64,000 bases of DNA from Desulfobacteraceae bacterium (GTDB taxonomy: Bacteria > Desulfobacterota > DSM-4660 > Desulfatiglandales > Desulfatiglandaceae). A model generated the notes under the pieces. It saw only the letters and a program-made list of their open reading frames with translations, did no database searches and was not told where the DNA came from. Location: contig JAUWMR010000022.1 in the NCBI GenBank assembly GCA_030613055.1, positions 1 through 64,000 on the forward strand, written 5' to 3'. Made by a program: the position numbers and the translations under genes. Position 1 is the first letter of the stretch; each line of letters opens with the position of its first letter. Below are positions 18,825 to 33,729 of the stretch, one piece after another.

Positions 18825-19955
18825 TCACTCCAGAATATGAATGTTCTTCTTCTTGCAAATGTCCTTGAGTACCTTTGGCCATACGCTGATGCTCACCTCT
18901 CCAAGGTGTGCCTTTTTTAAGAGAAGCATGAAAGTACGGGACTGCCCAATACCACCACCGATGCTGAGCGGTATATGGTTGTTTATTATTGCTTGATGGT
19001 ATGGGAAATTTAGGAAATCAAGCTGGCCGGTGATCTCTAATTGCTTCTTGAGCGTTTCTGCGTTGACGCGGATACCCATAGATGTGAGCTCATGACGGCG
19101 CTCCGTAACCGGGTTCCACACAAGAATATCACCGTTAAGGCCATGCATTGGTCTACCGTCTTGAGACTGTGTCTCTATGACCCAATCGTCATAGTCCGGG
19201 GCCCTGAGTTCGTGTGGGTAGCCGTCCTTGAGGGTCCATCCAATGCCATAAATGAAGACTGCCGTGTATTTTTTTGCAATCTCTGTCTCGCGCTCCTTAC
19301 GTGGCAGGTCGGGGTACATGTCAAGGATATCCTCGGCATGCAGGAATGTAAGCTTCTCGGGCAAGTCGGGGTACTTTTCGGTCTTCAACTGGGGAAAAAG
19401 CTTCTGGACATGGATTTCGGCGCCCTTGAGGACTTTCCACAATTTCTCAACAACTTCTGTCAGATACTCCAGGTTGCGCTGCTCATTTGTTATCACCAGT
19501 TCCCAGTCCCACTGGTCCACATATGCGCTGTGATCATGGTCAAGGAAGTAGTCCTTGCGCACAGCGTGCATATCGGTGTACAGGCCCTCCCCCACTTCCA
19601 TTCCAAATTGCTTAAGCGCCATACGTTTCCACTTGGTTGCTGCCTGCACTACCTGGGCATCAATTGGATTTTTGTCATAATCGTTTGAAATGTGGAACTG
19701 GACCGGGGTACGTGAGCCATCGCGGTCTAAGAGATCGTTCAATCCGCTCTCAACGTCCACTATCAGGGGTACTGTAACCCTTATCAGGTTGAGCTCTTTG
19801 CACAGATTCTCCTCGATATAGTTTTTCAGCGCAGTGATAGCTTCCTGTGTTTCCTTTGGGTCTAATAAAGAACCATAGTCCTGTGGCAGGATTTTCTCCA
19901 GCTCGTCATAGTCTCCGATGCCGGGTCCGGCCAGGTCCGCCTTTTTATCTGACAT
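18825..19955 (-). CDS. asnA: aspartate--ammonia ligase (asparagine synthetase A)
   Basis: 376 residues from the ATG at 19955; a TTG at 19964 is too close to the AAGGAGG ribosome site. It matches AsnA throughout: KWKRMALKQFGMEVGEGLYT, YVDQWDWE, ELRAPDYDDW, GLNGDILVWNPV, SMGIRV and the C-terminal GGGIGQSR. The enzyme is related to class II aminoacyl-tRNA synthetases and makes asparagine from aspartate, ATP and free ammonia. It is about 45 residues longer than the E. coli enzyme, mainly at the N-terminus. It begins 15 bases after gdhA, so two ammonia-consuming enzymes are co-transcribed. Confidence 0.96.
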   Translation of the reverse strand: MSDKKADLAGPGIGDYDELEKILPQDYGSLLDPKETQEAITALKNYIEENLCKELNLIRVTVPLIVDVESGLNDLLDRDGSRTPVQFHISNDYDKNPIDAQVVQAATKWKRMALKQFGMEVGEGLYTDMHAVRKDYFLDHDHSAYVDQWDWELVITNEQRNLEYLTEVVEKLWKVLKGAEIHVQKLFPQLKTEKYPDLPEKLTFLHAEDILDMYPDLPRKERETEIAKKYTAVFIYGIGWTLKDGYPHELRAPDYDDWVIETQSQDGRPMHGLNGDILVWNPVTERRHELTSMGIRVNAETLKKQLEITGQLDFLNFPYHQAIINNHIPLSIGGGIGQSRTFMLLLKKAHLGEVSISVWPKVLKDICKKKNIHILE

Positions 19956-19970
19956 TGTGTTCAATCCTCC

Positions 19971-21320
19971 TTACACTAACCCCTGATCCAGCATGGCATT
20001 CACTACCTTCACAAAACCTGCAATGTTTGCTCCTGCCATGTAATTGCCGGATACGCCATGCTCGGCGGCCGCATCCACGCAGCTTTGGTGGATGTTTTTC
20101 ATGATTATTCTAAGCCGGCTGTCCACTTCTTCCTTGGGCCAGGTCAGGCGCATGCTGTTCTGGGCCATTTCAAGACCCGATACAGCCACACCCCCGGCAT
20201 TTGCCGCTTTTCCAGGTGCATAAAGGAGGTTGTTGTCCAAAAAGATATCAATGGCTTGTGGTGTGGAGGGCATGTTTGCACCCTCACCGACCAGTTTTAC
20301 CCCGTTATTGACCAGGTTTTGGGCGTCCTTTTGGTTGATCTCATTCTGGGTGGCGCTTGGAAAGGCGCAGTCGGCCTTATGGTTCCATAACGGATTGTAA
20401 TCCAGGGTAGAATCAACTTCCGTGTAAACCGATGCTGAATACTTATCAACATACTCCTTGATCCTGCCCCGTTTGATGTTCTTTAGCCTCATTACGAAGG
20501 CAAGTTTGTCTTTGTTTATGCCCTCTTCATCATAAATATAGCCGGATGAATCGGATAGTGTAACCACTTTGCCGCCTAATTCTATTATTTTTTCCACGGT
20601 GTACTGTGCAACGTTTCCTGCACCTGATACAAGACAGGTTTTGCCTTTAAGGCTGTTGTCCTGCACGGCTAACATTTCTGCGGCAAAATAGACACAACCG
20701 TATCCGGTTGCCTCAGGCCGGACAAGACTGCCTCCCCAGCCAAGTCCTTTACCGGTAATTACGCCGGTGAATTCGTTGCTTATTCTCTTATAAGCCCCAA
20801 ACAGATAGCCGACTTCTCTGGCTCCTACACCAATGTCGCCGGCGGGAATATCGATATTGGGGCCTATATGCCGAGAAAGCTCTGTCATGAAAGACTGACA
20901 AAACCGCATGACTTCATTATCAGATTTTCCCTTGGGATCAAAATCAGACCCGCCTTTTGCTCCTCCCATGGACAGGGTGGTCAGAGCGTTCTTAAAGACC
21001 TGTTCAAATGCAAGAAATTTCAGAATGGAAAGATTGACAGAGGGATGAAAGCGAAGTCCTCCCTTGAAAGGTCCTAAAGCACTGTTCATTTGTACCCTGA
21101 AGCCTCTGTTTATGTGAATCTCTCCACTGTCATCCATCCAGGGTACGCGAAACATAATAACCCTTCTCGGTTCAGCTATTCTTTCTAATATCTTGGCATG
21201 ACGGTATTCGGGATTTCGATCAAGTACCGGCTGAACCGTTTCTACGACCTCTTGCACGGCCTGGTGAAATTCCTTTTCACCGGGATCTCTCGCCTTTACT
21301 ATTTCTAAAATGTCCGACAT
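19971..21320 (-). CDS. gdhA: NADP-type glutamate dehydrogenase
   Basis: 449 residues, the normal length for hexameric small GDH. Conserved catalytic and binding blocks are FKGGLRFHPSVNLSILKFLAFEQ near 85-107, MGGAKGGSDFDPKGKSD near 118-135 (catalytic Lys region) and PAGDIGVGAREVGYLFG near 160-176. The Rossmann part has CLVSGAGNVAQY near 236 and an Asp/Ser-rich VTLSDSSGY at the cofactor-selecting position, typical for NADP enzymes. It fixes ammonia onto 2-oxoglutarate. ATG 21320 has a strong AGGAGG site. It heads the gdhA-asnA pair. Confidence 0.95.
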   Translation of the reverse strand: MSDILEIVKARDPGEKEFHQAVQEVVETVQPVLDRNPEYRHAKILERIAEPRRVIMFRVPWMDDSGEIHINRGFRVQMNSALGPFKGGLRFHPSVNLSILKFLAFEQVFKNALTTLSMGGAKGGSDFDPKGKSDNEVMRFCQSFMTELSRHIGPNIDIPAGDIGVGAREVGYLFGAYKRISNEFTGVITGKGLGWGGSLVRPEATGYGCVYFAAEMLAVQDNSLKGKTCLVSGAGNVAQYTVEKIIELGGKVVTLSDSSGYIYDEEGINKDKLAFVMRLKNIKRGRIKEYVDKYSASVYTEVDSTLDYNPLWNHKADCAFPSATQNEINQKDAQNLVNNGVKLVGEGANMPSTPQAIDIFLDNNLLYAPGKAANAGGVAVSGLEMAQNSMRLTWPKEEVDSRLRIIMKNIHQSCVDAAAEHGVSGNYMAGANIAGFVKVVNAMLDQGLV

Positions 21321-21417: not shown

Positions 21418-24400
21418 TTAGTCCCCAATAATTACGCATTTAGATTTCCTGCCGTCGATCTTAAGTGTCAATGGTTTTGCCGATCTCACATGCCTTAAAA
21501 AAGCCGTTTCCTGCATAGCGGGCAGTGAACTTACCCATTTCCAGTCAAAGTGATCTTCCGAATCCGGCCCTTCGGTGACCGTTATGTAATGGATGCCAAG
21601 GGATGTGATGTTCTGGAAAAAATGAGAACCCTGGGAAGGATCGGCCTTTAGTTTTTCATTCCTGAGTTCAATAATGGCACCAACACCGGATATATTCCGC
21701 CATTGGACCGGAATGCCAAGCCACCTGTCAGCAGAACCCCACCTTCCGGGACCGACCAGGAGGTATGGACGCTTTTCCTTAAGCAAACCCGCGTTTATCC
21801 GGCCTATTTCCTCGGCCATCTGAAAGGTGGATTCCGGCCTGAAATCATCTGGTTTGACATAGATGATATCCGCTATTTTCTCATTTTTTCCATTTCCAAG
21901 AGCCTGGTTGGAGCGACAGAAGGCCCTTTCATATTCCTCCTGGGTAATTTGTACTTCGAAACGTTCTTCATCAGCGACCATTGGTCTCATCTGAAGAAGA
22001 TAAAAATCACTTTTGCGTTTTTTATCAGGACTCAGATTTACGGAGAACTCTATTTCAATAGGGCATCCCATTCCCCTGCGCCCGAGTTCCAGCAAATCGG
22101 ATAATAAGTTTGGCAAAGGAAAAATATTGTATTTTAGTATCTGGGCAAATGTTAAGATCTTGGGCCCCAGTATATAGGCAGTATCCCTGATGCGGTGTTC
22201 TTCAGGTACATACGTACTGGCAAGTGTCATTACGGGAAACTCTGTTTCCGCATCATCAACTTCCCTTTTTTCCAGATTGGAATATTCCTCGAAGTTGAGA
22301 TCATCGGGATAATCCTTGATTTTCAGCGCGTAAAAGAAACGCTGGGCGCCTGCTAAAATGTCATCAACAGTGGAGAATTGTGGCATAATGCCCGGATACT
22401 TGGGAGAAAAGCGCAAGGTTTTTTCTCCTTCCACAACGGTTTTGCCCAAGGCTAAGGCGATGTGGGCAATTCCTTCTTCAGATTTCATATGGGAAATCGG
22501 ATAAAAATTGTGGGACTGGGCTACGCCGGAAATAGCAGGATAGAAATAATTACCATATTCCTTTCCGGCCAACTGCTGGATAATGACGGCCATTGCCTCT
22601 GCATGGGGCTGATTCAATGTGTTTCTGGAAAATGCCTTGGGGCCTTCATAATACGTGGAAGCGTATACCAGTTTTATGGCTGTGATGAGATGTCGAAGCC
22701 GTTTGGAAGGTTCGGGATGATTGTTGGGTATCATATAGGTTTCGTAAAGCCCTGCGTAAGGCTGGAACTGGGCATCTTCCAGCAGACTGGATGAACGCAC
22801 GGAAAGTGGTATTTTGACCTGAGCTACAAATGCTTCGAGTTCGTTTGTAAGCCACTCTGGCATGTGTGCATCAAGAAAGCCTTTTGTAACTTCTTCATCG
22901 GTAAAATCTTCCTTGGCAAATCGTTCCAGGTGGTTCTGTGTTACAAAAGACTCAAAACCGTCCGTAGTGATGACCAGGGTTTTAGGAATCCTGATATTGA
23001 TTTCCGAGTATTTTTTGTTAAGTTTGGAATTTTGTTGAAGCAGGGCGGACATAAAGGCCAGGCCGCGTGCTTTTCCTCCTAAGGAGCCTTCGCCGATTTT
23101 AAGAAAATCCATGATGTATGGATCGAAATTGGCACGATTGAATTTGGCAACCACGCCTTTTTGACGCCATTTGCGTAATGCGCGGATGTTGGAAATAATA
23201 TACTGCCGCATATCATCGACGCTTTTAAAATCCGATGCCTTGACCTCGCGAAATGTGGAGGCAAGAGTAAATTCGGAACGGGTCATGATCCATCTGGAAA
23301 AGTGATTTTGTTCAGCATGATAAGAAAGACATTCATCCGGTACATGTGCAACTTTGGCCTCGAGTGTACGAAGGTCTGGGGCCCGGTCAATTTCCGTGCC
23401 GTCGGGCATGCGGAAAATGAAATCTCCAAAACCCAGATGAGTCAGGAAAAAATCGTGTAATTCCGCAAGGAGATTTGGAGAGTTCTTGTCAAGGAACATT
23501 GCTGGAATTTGACTTGCCTTATCCTTGTTTATGGGCTCAGCACTCAGCAGAAGCAGGGGAAGGTCAGGAATCTCTTCTCTGACTTGAGAAAGTAAATGAA
23601 ATCCTGCATCAACATCCATTTCACCATTTTTTGGGAGGCGGGCATCAGATATTATGCCAAAAAGAAAAGAGCGATATTTCTTGCAAAGCTCCCTTCCTTC
23701 CTCATAGTTTTCAGCCATTAATATTTTGGGTCTTGCCCGCATTGTGACGAGCCTGTGTTCTTCGTTGAGTCCGACTTCAAGTACTGCCTGGGTCTGTCTT
23801 ACGATTTCTTTGTAGATAAGGGGAAGAAAAGATGAGTAATATACAGGGGAATCCTCTACTAAGATCAGGACGCGGACATTGGCTCTCTGGGTATCAAAAT
23901 CAACATTAAGGCGGTCTTCCGCGTTTTTAACGAGGGCAAGAAGCAGGTCGGAATTGCCTGACCAGATAAAGAGCTTATCAATTCCGCTGCAATCCCTGTT
24001 TTCCGGAGGCGGGTAAAAGCCTCTGGGGTTATGAGCCAGAAGAATGACAGGCAGATTTGGCCTTATCTTTTTTATCTCCAGACCGAAAGAGAAGGCATCC
24101 ATTTCATCCAGATGCGGCATGGTAATAACCATATCAAATTCTTTCTTATTTAAAACCGCCAGGGCCTCATAAGCCGAAGAAGTGCGGGTCACACGGGGTG
24201 GTTGGCTCAGGTTCAGCCCGCTGTATTCATTTATGATCCTTGATGCAAGACTTGTATCTTCCTCCATTATGAATGCATCATAGGGACTGGAGACCAGGAG
24301 GATTTCTCGAATCTTGATGGACATCAATTCGTGAAATACTTTGAAATCAACATAGAATTCACCGGATAAATTATTGCTTCTTGGAGTCATATTAAGACCC

Positions 24401-24510
24401 GGATTAACACGTGATTTTGATAAAAAGGCCTCAGAAAGAAGGCTATAAAGTTGATGTTCAAACCAGGCGCGAGCTGCCTGCGGACCGCACCCGCCGGTTT
24501 TAGCCTCCAA
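21418..24510 (-). CDS. receiver-like / PEP-synthase ATP-grasp domain protein
   Basis: 1030 residues if the TTG at 24510 is used; a later ATG at 24387 is possible. Two response-regulator-like regions occupy about residues 55-200 and 210-365 (KIREILLVSSPYDAFIMEED; VRVLILVEDSPVYYS). The ATP/PEP-pyruvate-binding N domain of PPDK/PEP synthase then spans about 470-860 (EGSLGGKARGLAFM; RSSSLLEDAQFQPYAGLYET). The phosphohistidine domain and the PEP-binding TIM barrel of true PEP synthase are absent, so it cannot catalyse the full reaction alone. Similar proteins occur in Bacteroidetes and Desulfobacterota with no proven role. It follows the FMN protein by 11 bases and so shares the ANTAR-type leader. 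Confidence 0.8.
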   Translation of the reverse strand: MEAKTGGCGPQAARAWFEHQLYSLLSEAFLSKSRVNPGLNMTPRSNNLSGEFYVDFKVFHELMSIKIREILLVSSPYDAFIMEEDTSLASRIINEYSGLNLSQPPRVTRTSSAYEALAVLNKKEFDMVITMPHLDEMDAFSFGLEIKKIRPNLPVILLAHNPRGFYPPPENRDCSGIDKLFIWSGNSDLLLALVKNAEDRLNVDFDTQRANVRVLILVEDSPVYYSSFLPLIYKEIVRQTQAVLEVGLNEEHRLVTMRARPKILMAENYEEGRELCKKYRSFLFGIISDARLPKNGEMDVDAGFHLLSQVREEIPDLPLLLLSAEPINKDKASQIPAMFLDKNSPNLLAELHDFFLTHLGFGDFIFRMPDGTEIDRAPDLRTLEAKVAHVPDECLSYHAEQNHFSRWIMTRSEFTLASTFREVKASDFKSVDDMRQYIISNIRALRKWRQKGVVAKFNRANFDPYIMDFLKIGEGSLGGKARGLAFMSALLQQNSKLNKKYSEINIRIPKTLVITTDGFESFVTQNHLERFAKEDFTDEEVTKGFLDAHMPEWLTNELEAFVAQVKIPLSVRSSSLLEDAQFQPYAGLYETYMIPNNHPEPSKRLRHLITAIKLVYASTYYEGPKAFSRNTLNQPHAEAMAVIIQQLAGKEYGNYFYPAISGVAQSHNFYPISHMKSEEGIAHIALALGKTVVEGEKTLRFSPKYPGIMPQFSTVDDILAGAQRFFYALKIKDYPDDLNFEEYSNLEKREVDDAETEFPVMTLASTYVPEEHRIRDTAYILGPKILTFAQILKYNIFPLPNLLSDLLELGRRGMGCPIEIEFSVNLSPDKKRKSDFYLLQMRPMVADEERFEVQITQEEYERAFCRSNQALGNGKNEKIADIIYVKPDDFRPESTFQMAEEIGRINAGLLKEKRPYLLVGPGRWGSADRWLGIPVQWRNISGVGAIIELRNEKLKADPSQGSHFFQNITSLGIHYITVTEGPDSEDHFDWKWVSSLPAMQETAFLRHVRSAKPLTLKIDGRKSKCVIIGD

Positions 24511-24521
24511 GTTTAGGCGCT

Positions 24522-26105
24522 TCAGGAATCAATAATCCCAAGGGCCTCATCCCTGTATGCGTCCATTACATAGGGAATGCCGGTAACTTTTGCACATTCC
24601 TCAGTAAGAGCGAAGATGTCTTTCCTACTGATATATTGGACTTCCCAGTTCCTTGACCCGGCCATTATCTGCTGGAGGCCTACTTTGATTTTATCCGTGG
24701 CACTGAATAAGCCAACTGCACCTAATGGAAGGTTATCTGCTTCAGACCCGTACTTTTCCTTCAGGACTTCATAATTCATAAATATTTCTTCTTTGGTAGA
24801 TCCGAATCTCGAGACAGTGGCAGGAAGCCCGCCATCTTCTCCTCTCAACCACTTCTCGGCGTTTTTGCCCACCATACCCGGGATCATCAATGCCCTGCCC
24901 ATGCATACGGCCTTGCAATAAGGTGCACCTAATGCCAGCGCCTTGAAAACATGATCTTCAGAAGAAAAACCGCCTGCAAATGCGATATCCGGCACCCATT
25001 TACCCTTGCCTGCCAGCCGATCACACAACTCGTAGGCCATGGAATGGAGGTATATAGAGGGAATGCCCCATTCGTTCATCATTCTCCACGGGCTCATGCC
25101 CGTGCCGCCTGGAGCGCCGTCAATGGTTAAAAGGTCTATTTTAGCATCGCTGGACCAGCGTATGGCCATGGCAAGTTCTCTCATCGGGTAAGCGCCTGTT
25201 TTAAGTGTTATACGTTTGGCGCCTAATTTGCGTATCCTTTCCACCTCATTCATAAAGCCCTCTTGATCGATGAACCCGAGGCGGGAATGGCGCTCGAATT
25301 GCTTCAGTGGGCCAGCCTTGAAGGCCGCCTGGAAAGCAGGATCCTCCGGGTCCGGCGTTACGATATAGCCTCGTTTTTTCAGTTCTATGGCCCGTTCCAA
25401 TGAGTTTACCTTGATTTCCCCACCAATACACTTGGCTCCCTGGCCCCATTTTAACTCAATGGTCTCTACCCCCAGTTTATCTATGACATATTCTGCAACA
25501 CCATTTCGGGTGTCCTCAACGTTCATCTGGACGAGAATATCACCATAGCCTTCGTGATAGCGACGATATTCTTTTACACGACGGTCCATCTCCGGGGATT
25601 TCGCGACCTTGCCGTTTTTGTCAAGTTCCAACTGTGGATCAATTCCGACCACATTTTCACCGCAAACCAGGCTGATTCCGCTTATTGCGGCACCTATTGC
25701 AAAATGTTCCCAGTTTCTGCGAGCAATATCAGTGCTGCCAAGGGCACCTGTGAATATGGGCACCTTCATTTTTACTTTGTCTGTAGCGCCATAAGACGTT
25801 TCAGTATTTACCGCCGGAAAAGTAGCCTTATCAGGATCAGCGTCTATTCCTTTTGCCCCGAGGGCATATCCCATGATATTGAGATGGGAATAGTCAACGG
25901 GATAGTCCTTATCCGCACCGGCAGTTACGCTGCCGAAGGGTTCCGGATAAAGGAGTTCTCTCCCCCTGAATGTTGCCCTGAACATATCGCAGTTTCCCTT
26001 GCATCCGTCAACGCATCTGCTGCATATGCCGGATTGGGGCGCGACATCTCGAGAACGGTTTTTTGTTTGAAGAGCTTCATTAGAATTGGGTCTTTGTAGG
26101 TTCAT
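24522..26105 (-). CDS. FMN-binding glutamate synthase-like protein (GltB2-type), copy 1
   Basis: 527 residues from the ATG at 26105, 6 bases from a GGGAGG site; an ATG at 26120 lies upstream of that site. The body matches the FMN/2-oxoglutarate domain of glutamate synthase: VETIELKWGQGAKCIGGE near 220, ITLKTGAYPMRELA near 310 and DGAPGGTGMSPWRMM near 335. The N-terminus has a Cys cluster C-x2-C-x3-C-x3-C at 28/31/35/39. The C-terminal Cys motif that binds [3Fe-4S] in GltB (CHxNxCPxG) is missing, as are the glutaminase and GXGXG domains. It may make glutamate with a partner or do something else. Its leader carries an ANTAR-type attenuator. Confidence 0.88.
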   Translation of the reverse strand: MNLQRPNSNEALQTKNRSRDVAPQSGICSRCVDGCKGNCDMFRATFRGRELLYPEPFGSVTAGADKDYPVDYSHLNIMGYALGAKGIDADPDKATFPAVNTETSYGATDKVKMKVPIFTGALGSTDIARRNWEHFAIGAAISGISLVCGENVVGIDPQLELDKNGKVAKSPEMDRRVKEYRRYHEGYGDILVQMNVEDTRNGVAEYVIDKLGVETIELKWGQGAKCIGGEIKVNSLERAIELKKRGYIVTPDPEDPAFQAAFKAGPLKQFERHSRLGFIDQEGFMNEVERIRKLGAKRITLKTGAYPMRELAMAIRWSSDAKIDLLTIDGAPGGTGMSPWRMMNEWGIPSIYLHSMAYELCDRLAGKGKWVPDIAFAGGFSSEDHVFKALALGAPYCKAVCMGRALMIPGMVGKNAEKWLRGEDGGLPATVSRFGSTKEEIFMNYEVLKEKYGSEADNLPLGAVGLFSATDKIKVGLQQIMAGSRNWEVQYISRKDIFALTEECAKVTGIPYVMDAYRDEALGIIDS

Positions 26106-26136
26106 AATTTCCTCCCTCATTGCAAATTAACAAAAC

Positions 26137-26176
26137 AAAAAAAGGCATCTTTCCTCAATGGGATAAAGACGCCTTT
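26137..26176 (-). terminator. leader terminator (attenuator) before the FMN glutamate synthase-like gene
   Basis: The minus-strand stem AAAGGCGUCUUU (26176-26165) pairs with AAAGAUGCCUUU (26152-26141) through 12 pairs including one GU, with a 12-base loop, and runs straight into a U-tract. It lies 31 bases upstream of the ATG at 26105, so it is an attenuator and not the end of another gene. Confidence 0.9.
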
Positions 26177-26220
26177 GTCTCAGGTATACAGAAAAGCTCC
26201 GCACTCCTTTGTGCGATGCT
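26137..26220 (-). promoter_or_regulatory. ANTAR-type antiterminator RNA in leader of the FMN glutamate synthase-like gene
   Basis: Read on the minus strand, the leader forms hairpin P1 (26199-26216, stem UCGCAC/GUGCGG, extended by AGC/GCU) with the hexaloop AAAGGA. Seventeen bases later comes hairpin P2 (26166-26181, stem GAGAC/GUCUU with one GU pair) with the hexaloop AAAGGC. Both loops have A at position 1 and G at position 4, the known ANTAR-protein recognition pattern. The loop and 3' arm of P2 are also the 5' arm of the terminator at 26141-26176, so the two folds exclude each other. Binding by a dimeric ANTAR regulator would stabilise P1/P2 and allow read-through. A GAF-ANTAR protein is encoded at 33019-33729. 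Confidence 0.82.
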
Positions 26221-26242
26221 TTCTATTACATTAAAACAAAAA

Positions 26243-26271
26243 ATGATAATCTTTTTTATTCTATTTGTCAA
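26243..26271 (-). promoter_or_regulatory. sigma-70 promoter for the ANTAR leader
   Basis: On the minus strand TTGACA (26271-26266), a 17-base spacer and TATCAT (26248-26243) form a near-consensus promoter. Transcription would start around 26236, about 15 bases before hairpin P1. Confidence 0.8.
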
Positions 26272-26316
26272 GAGCTTTTTTTTAAACTGTGTTTTTTTTA
26301 TGCAGCCCCTTTCTTC

Positions 26317-31319: not shown

Positions 31320-32516
31320 GTGATGTCACTATCAAGTATAAACGCCTCGGCTGCAACGCTGACGAAGAACAGAACAGAAGGATCGGTCGTACCGTCCTCG
31401 GGTATGTGCGTGACATGCGTGGACGGCTGCATCGGCATGTGCGAGATCGGCAAGTCCGCGTACCGGGGTCATGAGGTAATTTACCCCCAGCCCTTTGGCG
31501 TGATAACCACCGCTGGTGAGAAGGAATATCCTGTGGACTATTCGCACTTCAACATCATGGGGAGCACGGTTGGCGCTTATGGCATCGAAGCTGACAGCGA
31601 TAAGGCAATATTTCCGGCCGTCGACCTTGAGGTGATTATCGGCCATGATAAAGGTCTAAAATTCCGTTATCCATGGATCATCCCCGGGTTAGGTTCCACC
31701 AACATTGCCAAGCAAAACTGGGAAGGTTTGGCCATCGGATCCGCACTGGCCGGAACCGGCCTGACTATTGGCGAGAATGTTGTGGGCATGGACCCTGAAG
31801 CAGTGATAAAGAATCATCGGGTGGTTGACACAGTGGACCTTAAGCATCGGGTACAGCTTTACAAGGATCACCAGCGTGACGGCTATGGGGCCATCATTGT
31901 TCAGGCAAACATCGAAGACACACGCCTGGGTGTGCATGAGTATGCCATTGAAAAACTTGGGGTTGAATGCGTTGAACTTAAATGGGGCCAGGGCGCCAAG
32001 AGCATTGGGGGCGAGGTCAAGATCAGAGACCTGAAGAGGGCACAAATGCTTCAGGAACGGGGGTATATTGTATTGCCGGACCCGAGCGATCCGGTGGTAA
32101 TAAATGCCTTCGAGCGGGGTGCGTTTAAGGAGTTTGAACGACATTCCCGCGTTGGCATGGTATCGGAAGAGCTGTTTGCAAAACGGATAGCAGAATTGCG
32201 CAAAGCAGGCGCTCGATACATTTCGCTCAAAACCGGCGCTTATCGCCCTGCCGACCTGGCGTTGGCAATCTCCTTCGCCTCAAAATACGAATTAGACTAT
32301 CTTACTGTTGACGGTGCGGGCGGTGGCACAGGCATGAGCCCGTGGCGCATGATGAATGAGTGGGGTATACCAGCTGTTCACTTACACTCGCTTCTCCATA
32401 ACTATGCGAAATATCTGGCTGACAAAGGCAGGTACGTGCCATCCCTTATATTGGCTGGCGGTTTTCCCTGGAAGATCATATTTTCAAGGGTCTTGCTCTC
32501 GGCTCACCCTTTGTGA
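31320..32516 (+). CDS. FMN-binding glutamate synthase-like protein, copy 2, N-terminal part (frameshifted)
   Basis: 398 residues as read, of which about the first 381 match copy 1. It starts with GTG at 31320 or ATG at 31323, both served by an AAGGAG site. The Cys cluster C-x2-C-x3-C-x3-C is at 30/33/37/41. FMN-domain motifs are VECVELKWGQGAKSIGGEV near 215, ISLKTGAYRPADLA near 300 and DGAGGGTGMSPWRMM near 327. At 32462-32465 a run of four T where copy 1 logic needs five (GGF-S-x-E-D-H) shifts the frame, and the reading ends in an unrelated tail. One added base would restore a single gene of about 528 codons ending at 32905. Confidence 0.85.
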   Translation: MMSLSSINASAATLTKNRTEGSVVPSSGMCVTCVDGCIGMCEIGKSAYRGHEVIYPQPFGVITTAGEKEYPVDYSHFNIMGSTVGAYGIEADSDKAIFPAVDLEVIIGHDKGLKFRYPWIIPGLGSTNIAKQNWEGLAIGSALAGTGLTIGENVVGMDPEAVIKNHRVVDTVDLKHRVQLYKDHQRDGYGAIIVQANIEDTRLGVHEYAIEKLGVECVELKWGQGAKSIGGEVKIRDLKRAQMLQERGYIVLPDPSDPVVINAFERGAFKEFERHSRVGMVSEELFAKRIAELRKAGARYISLKTGAYRPADLALAISFASKYELDYLTVDGAGGGTGMSPWRMMNEWGIPAVHLHSLLHNYAKYLADKGRYVPSLILAGGFPWKIIFSRVLLSAHPL

Positions 32517-32905
32517 AGCTCATAGGTATGGCCCGGAGCCCACTTGCGGCCGCCATGGTTGGGAAAACAATCGGCCGTGCAATTAATGATCATCAACTTC
32601 CCGTATATATTGAACGTTTCGGTCAGTCCAGGGACGAAATATTTATAACGGCTGCTTCCCTGCGAAAGGAACTAGGAGACAAAGAATTCGAAAAACTGCC
32701 AACAGGTGCCATTGGGCTCTATACCTACTATGAACGACTCGCTCATGGGCTGCGCCAACTCCTGGCAGGCGCCCGTAAGTTTTCACTTGAGCAGACCTCT
32801 CGCGACGATATAACTGCCCTGACTGAAGAGGCTGCCAAAGTCAGCGGTATCCAATATGTGTTAGATGTGGATAAAGACAGGGTTGAGGGGATTCTTAACG
32901 GCTAG
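32513..32905 (+). CDS. FMN-binding glutamate synthase-like protein, copy 2, C-terminal part (frameshifted)
   Basis: 130 residues from an internal ATG that need not be a real start. The true homologous frame begins earlier, at about 32469 (GAAGATCATATTTTC encodes EDHIF as in copy 1). It matches the last 130 residues of copy 1: a region around IERFGQSRDEIF, LPTGAIGLY and a final FSLEQTSRDDITALTEEAAK. The first part equals the region that lacks the [3Fe-4S] cysteines. Whether the cell makes a working protein depends on whether the frameshift at 32462-32465 is real. Confidence 0.8.
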   Translation: MKLIGMARSPLAAAMVGKTIGRAINDHQLPVYIERFGQSRDEIFITAASLRKELGDKEFEKLPTGAIGLYTYYERLAHGLRQLLAGARKFSLEQTSRDDITALTEEAAKVSGIQYVLDVDKDRVEGILNG

Positions 32906-33018: not shown

Positions 33019-33729
33019 TCAAAAATCATCTGAAAGCATGATTGCCTCGGCCACATGCAGCATGGATTTGCGGGAGTCCATGCTGCGTTTTTGGATCCAG
33101 CGGTATGCTTGCTCACCGGTCATATTTCGCCGGCGCATAAGGACCTCTTTTGCCCGTTCTACTAACTTTCGTGTTTCCAACTCCTCCTGGATTACCCTGG
33201 TCTTTACCAGGAGTTCCGTATTCAGGATGGCGACTGCTGCCTGGTTGGCCACGGCCGTAATTAGGTTTACCTCTGTTTCGGAAAATTCATGGGGTTCGGC
33301 AGTAAAACAGTTGAGGACCCCGATTACCTTTTCATCCTTTACCTGAAGCGGCACACTGGCCATAGATACCAGGCCAACTTTTCTGGCCATTTCCTTTTCC
33401 TTGAACCGGGGTTCTTTTAAGACATCCCTTACAATAAGTGGTTGGTTATGTGTGGCTACAAAACCCACCACGCCTTCGTACATATTCAGGGAGCGGTCCT
33501 TTACATAGTCAGGATCAATGGTTTGCGTGGCCTTTAGCCGGATCTTGTTCGGGCTTTCATTTTCGTCTATAAGCCATAAAGAACAGATTTCAACACCTGT
33601 CACCTTAGCCGTGACCATCACTATCAGCTTGAGAATATCTTCCAAATATTGATCGGAAGTAATGGCCCTGCTGATGTCGGTAATGGCCTTGATGTATTTG
33701 TCGTATGTTTCGGGAGTACTTTTTTCCAT
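33019..33729 (-). CDS. GAF-ANTAR antitermination regulator
   Basis: 236 residues. Residues about 15-165 form a GAF sensor domain (LKLIVMVTAKVTGVEICSLW; GVVGFVATHNQPLIVRDV; SVPLQVKDEKVIGVLNCF). After a coiled linker (about 165-180), residues 180-236 are an ANTAR RNA-binding domain (ERAKEVLMRRRNMTGEQAYRW, then SRKSMLHVAEAI). ANTAR proteins bind paired hexaloop hairpins in mRNA leaders and prevent termination, mostly at nitrogen genes. A matching leader lies at 26137-26220. The ATG overlaps the methyltransferase stop as TAATG, so it is translationally coupled to that gene. The GAF ligand is unknown. Confidence 0.92.
   Translation of the reverse strand: MEKSTPETYDKYIKAITDISRAITSDQYLEDILKLIVMVTAKVTGVEICSLWLIDENESPNKIRLKATQTIDPDYVKDRSLNMYEGVVGFVATHNQPLIVRDVLKEPRFKEKEMARKVGLVSMASVPLQVKDEKVIGVLNCFTAEPHEFSETEVNLITAVANQAAVAILNTELLVKTRVIQEELETRKLVERAKEVLMRRRNMTGEQAYRWIQKRSMDSRKSMLHVAEAIMLSDDF

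Follow-up and report, generated by a model that had tools for sequence, protein, structure and literature searches.

Four closely spaced genes on the minus strand of the 64-kb window (the whole stretch of DNA analysed), which comes from a bacterium of the sulfate-reducer type, form what appears to be an ammonia-assimilation operon, encoding a GltB2-like protein, a receiver-like protein with a PPDK_N (ATP-grasp) domain, a glutamate dehydrogenase and AsnA, the ammonia-dependent asparagine synthetase (Table 1). The gaps between them measure 11, 97 and 6 nt. The four genes are probably read as one transcript, and a scan for terminators inside the operon returned none that was convincing (10 matches versus 7.7 expected). 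A preliminary description of this DNA had named the FMN protein and the receiver/PEP-synthase-like gene as the controlled genes; both do belong to the operon, but it is wider and also takes in glutamate dehydrogenase and AsnA. The likely start of the first gene is the ATG at 26105, preceded by GAGGGAGG, rather than position 26120. Its product is GltB2-like by domain match, FMN binding and glutamate synthase activity being putative, and no structurally solved relative was found by sequence search. Orthologues of this protein are 78–94% identical, and the receiver/PPDK-N gene follows gene 1 in the orthologous operons too.

Table 1. Features of the leader, the operon and the regulator gene, in window coordinates.
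Feature	Position	Strand	Basis
Sigma-70-type promoter (predicted)	26243..26271	minus	TTGACA-N17-TATCAT; consensus scan
P1 hairpin	26193..26222	minus	hexaloop AAAGGA; core 26199-26216 plus lower stem; sequence, covariation
P2 hairpin (antiterminator)	26166..26181	minus	hexaloop AAAGGC; sequence, invariant stem in 18 leaders
Intrinsic terminator	26137..26176	minus	stem 26141-26176 plus U-tract 26137-26143; folding, covariation
Gene 1, GltB2-like (Glu_synthase domain) protein	24522..26105	minus	Pfam PF01645 E 4.8e-15; N-terminal Cys cluster motif
Gene 2, receiver-like + PPDK_N (ATP-grasp) protein	21418..24510	minus	PF01326 E 3.5e-36; PF00072 slightly below cut-off
Gene 3, glutamate dehydrogenase	19971..21320	minus	Pfam PF00208/PF02812; kept in orthologous operons
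Gene 4, AsnA, ammonia-dependent asparagine synthetase	18825..19964	minus	Pfam PF03590 E 1e-87
GAF-ANTAR regulator gene	33019..33729	minus	Pfam PF03861 68.5 bits (cut-off 27.3), GAF 77 bits

Two mutually exclusive structures in the leader

Upstream of gene 1, the minus strand carries at 26137-26225 two hexaloop hairpins, P1 and P2, and an intrinsic terminator that overlaps the second, an arrangement that had been noticed in the preliminary description and that we recovered by sequence inspection, folding and a descriptor search. The P1 core (26216-26199) reads TCGCAC[AAAGGA]GTGCGG and is lengthened by GC/GC and AAA/TTT pairings into a stem of about 26222-26193, and P2 (26181-26166) reads GAGAC[AAAGGC]GTCTT. 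Both loops have A at position 1 and G at position 4 (A1/G4) and are closed by a C-G pair, on stems of six core pairs in P1 and five in P2, where the motif asks for at least three. The P1 core and P2 lie 17 nt apart (11 nt for the extended P1), a spacing that is clustered in most elements and longer in a few. The terminator stem (26176-26141) had been described as having 12 pairs; the stem itself is there, but we count 14 pairs interrupted by one two-base bulge, followed by T7 at 26143-26137. Its 5′ arm starts within the P2 loop and it takes in this loop and the P2 3′ arm, so that bases 26166-26176 are common to both structures and only one of the two can form at a time. The promoter proposed earlier just upstream matches the consensus at 11 of 12 positions, and TTGACA recurs at a comparable distance in many orthologous leaders.

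Folding of the leader was better than that of shuffled sequences (z −4.6; 0/200 shuffles as good), with nearest-neighbour energies of −14.6 kcal/mol for P1, −3.0 kcal/mol for P2 and −16.4 kcal/mol for the terminator. Since P2 is weak and the terminator strong, and since P1 fits either state, termination should be the default and P2 should need help. A descriptor requiring two A1/G4 hexaloop hairpins 20–45 nt apart, a T-run and a terminator arm that begins within P2 matched exactly once in the window (both strands) and never in 40 dinucleotide shuffles. Rfam at gathering thresholds gave zero matches in the same 64 kb.

Orthologous loci were collected with 24522-26087 as query, which begins six codons inside the gene, so that upstream distances include 18 coding bases. 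Leaders lacking the paired A1/G4 hexaloops, which the preliminary description had named as the observation that would speak against it, failed to appear among the nine closest GltB2-like orthologues (90–93% identical, from Desulfobacteraceae and relatives): all nine keep the loops at the same place, on altered stems. Alignment of 18 orthologous leaders revealed compensatory both-side changes in 6 of 8 P1 pairs, and in 11 of 21 pairs when P1 and the terminator are taken together. In this alignment 89% of the cells were paired, versus 40–59% in slid controls, and the observed covariation was reached by 0/500 shuffles. Of the covarying P1 and P2 stems that the preliminary description had suggested looking for upstream of orthologues, P1 covaries, as does the terminator; the P2 segment GAC[loop]GTC is conserved without covariation of its own, being invariant across the 18 leaders, as expected of a segment serving two structures. 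When 65 distinct elements were aligned by fitting to the model, the terminator covaried as well, and base 5 of the P2 loop and its partner in the terminator arm were seen to exchange together, from G-C to A-U. One degenerate leader (L023) has the P1 loop GATAGC, which is not A1/G4. In the organism's own 4.26-Mb genome, the covariance model built from the 18 leaders picked out this site alone (E about 1e-16); the second match (E 0.6, at C87) proved to be a plain terminator without hexaloops and was rejected.

It is very improbable that the leader is a plain intrinsic terminator or attenuator under other control (a leader peptide, a ligand or another RNA-binding protein) in which the hexaloops are incidental. 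A1/G4 is kept in both loops in 57/65 distinct elements, the descriptor finds nothing in shuffled sequence, and the element is linked to ANTAR genes in relatives (see below); while terminator-forming leaders are common and the PyrR and amino-acid leaders of Rfam match weakly, these matches lie far under the curated scores.

A single GAF-ANTAR gene linked to the leader

The GAF-ANTAR protein encoded in the window is the sole ANTAR protein found in the genome (96% complete). The residues with which EutV contacts RNA have been named from a crystal structure (PMC8934654), and alignment to 6wsh indicates that Arg142, Lys143, Lys149, Tyr164, Met172 and Arg175 are identical in the GAF-ANTAR protein, with Glu160 changed to Gly, Arg168 to Gln, Asn173 to Asp and Arg177 to Ser. 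Its GAF domain resembles that of NifA; from this likeness and the target genes one may guess that the domain responds to a nitrogen- or carbon/nitrogen-status ligand, and it would be a guess only that the two GAF domains have a ligand in common.

In this genome the regulator gene is not adjacent to the leader, from which it is separated by 6.8 kb containing an opposite-strand NuoE/NuoF-GltD/GltB2-like cluster. A second GltB2-like gene, at 31320-32905 (+), is split into the overlapping frames 31320-32516 and 32513-32905, which suggests a frameshift or an assembly error.

The linkage is apparent in relatives. In a survey of 85 genomes of the order, an ANTAR gene was present in 57 and the element in 49. 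Within families f1 and f4, 43 genomes had both, 11 neither, 6 the element only and 3 the ANTAR gene only (Fisher p 5e-6, genomes being treated as independent of shared ancestry), and the mixed cases (6 + 3) were mostly fragmented assemblies. In 32 genomes the ANTAR gene immediately precedes the leader, 70–870 nt away and with the same orientation, and in the present genome and in G045 the two are 5–7 kb apart. Family f2 gave no match in the first survey, and at 5/5 loci examined a weak match (20–24 bits) lies some 70 nt beyond the ANTAR gene. The same order of ANTAR gene and element recurs in more distant families of the phylum; the weak phylum-wide matches (E 1e-6 to 1e-4) may include plain terminators. 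The preliminary description had paired this regulator with this leader, a pairing that is strongly supported at the sequence level by the co-occurrence of the two across the order, by the presence of only one ANTAR protein in the genome, and by the position of its orthologue next to the leader in relatives.

Among the named orthologous loci, the leader is found in 13/13 operons that contain the receiver/PPDK-N gene and have enough upstream DNA, and none of eight GltB2-GDH operons that lack this gene has it. In these loci, then, the ANTAR leader and the receiver/PPDK-N gene are present or absent together (L014-L019, L021 and L022 versus L003-L013).

The same dual-hexaloop terminator element also stands before MvhD-like, MetV and MetF genes (Pfam FlpD, DUF5981 and MTHFR) in many relatives (L155:5709-5800, L156, L157, L158, L160, L166-L173, L193 and L194), a one-carbon and not a nitrogen target, and further elements precede gltB or glutamate dehydrogenase. 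An element directly before a gene resembling aspartyl-tRNA synthetase (L165:4801-4884) would be an unusual ANTAR target. The present genome has two MvhD-MetV-MetF sets, neither with an element by covariance search and locus inspection. A literature search of incomplete coverage returned no paper that ties ANTAR regulation to methylenetetrahydrofolate reductase, and this recurrent target would widen ANTAR regulons past nitrogen genes. We tentatively raise the possibility, to which we give somewhat less than even chances, that a single GAF-ANTAR protein of Desulfobacterota uses the same antiterminator RNA to coordinate ammonia assimilation (GltB2, GDH, AsnA, GltB) with one-carbon reduction (MvhD-MetV-MetF), with the GAF domain as a sensor of carbon/nitrogen balance, and that the present genome kept the nitrogen target only.

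Predicted antitermination and known ANTAR systems

In our reading, the leader is very probably an ANTAR-controlled transcription attenuator of the ammonia-assimilation operon. We infer binding, antitermination and the direction of regulation as follows. RNA polymerase starting from the predicted promoter would transcribe P1 and then P2. As long as the GAF-ANTAR dimer is inactive, the terminator stem and its U-tract would form, and transcription would stop about 30 nt before gene 1. Upon a signal from the GAF domain, the ANTAR dimer would bind the A1/G4 hexaloops, first that of P1 and next that of P2, and, by holding P2, would prevent the terminator from forming, so that the GltB2-like, receiver/PPDK-N, glutamate dehydrogenase and AsnA genes could be expressed.

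Two further alternatives accept that the ANTAR protein binds the leader, and we regard each as slightly less probable still than the plain attenuator. Instead of gating the operon, the leader could serve mainly as a source of short terminated transcripts that titrate the ANTAR protein, for which EutX/rli55, described as sequestering an ANTAR protein (PMC8934654), offers a precedent; the best Rfam match is moreover P11, classed as a Pseudomonas sRNA (RF00625, 32 bits, E 1.4e-5, spanning 26144-26274). However, this match falls short of the 70 bits that Rfam sets as cut-off. The operon downstream is conserved, and its start codon lies 31 nt past the end of the terminator; with one element in the genome, there is also little else to titrate for. 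The other alternative, in which the ANTAR protein binds the leader and chiefly affects translation or the stability of the RNA, recalls the matches seen near ribosome-binding sites in other organisms by Ramesh et al. (PMC3369931), but the ribosome-binding site here (about 26118-26111) is not part of either the hairpins or the terminator, and the aligned leaders have a U-tract and a covarying terminator.

Transcription attenuation by the GAF-ANTAR protein would make this a one-regulator, one-RNA, one-operon system of sulfate reducers and their relatives. Such a system is a good test bed for GAF-ANTAR sensing, because GAF-ANTAR proteins have been named as a class and only two one-component ANTAR proteins, NasR (with a NIT domain) and PAL (with PAS and LOV domains), have been characterised (PMC7496416).

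The Rfam family P11 of Pseudomonas shares GACAAAGGCGUC P2 and the overlapping terminator with the present leader and differs in its P1 loop, in addition to the missed cut-off; although filed as an sRNA, it is probably itself an ANTAR (NasT-type) controlled leader. The type of RNA switch is already known, the present leader is a well-supported further instance, and Pelobacter, in which a case has been predicted, also belongs to Desulfobacterota. The ANTAR dual-hairpin RNA motif was defined by Ramesh et al. (2012; PMC3369931), whose predictions place it before glutamate synthase genes of Desulfotomaculum reducens and, in Pelobacter carbinolicus, before those for nitrogenase; they concluded that the main role of ANTAR regulons is in nitrogen metabolism. 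The preliminary description knew of no described ANTAR regulon with this target class and has to be corrected on this point. Akin to EutV/eutP, NasR/nasF and AmiR/amiE (PMC3369931), the present leader has two A1/G4 hexaloop hairpins with C-G closing pairs, a P2 that overlaps an intrinsic terminator and a nitrogen-related target; as opposed to these, its predicted regulator is a one-component GAF-ANTAR protein, and its P1 has a long stable lower stem. With the Desulfotomaculum reducens and Pelobacter carbinolicus predictions it has in common the motif and the functional theme, including a glutamate synthase target, whereas here the operon consists of GltB2-like, receiver/PPDK-N, glutamate dehydrogenase and AsnA genes, and the linked GAF-ANTAR gene is kept across many families.
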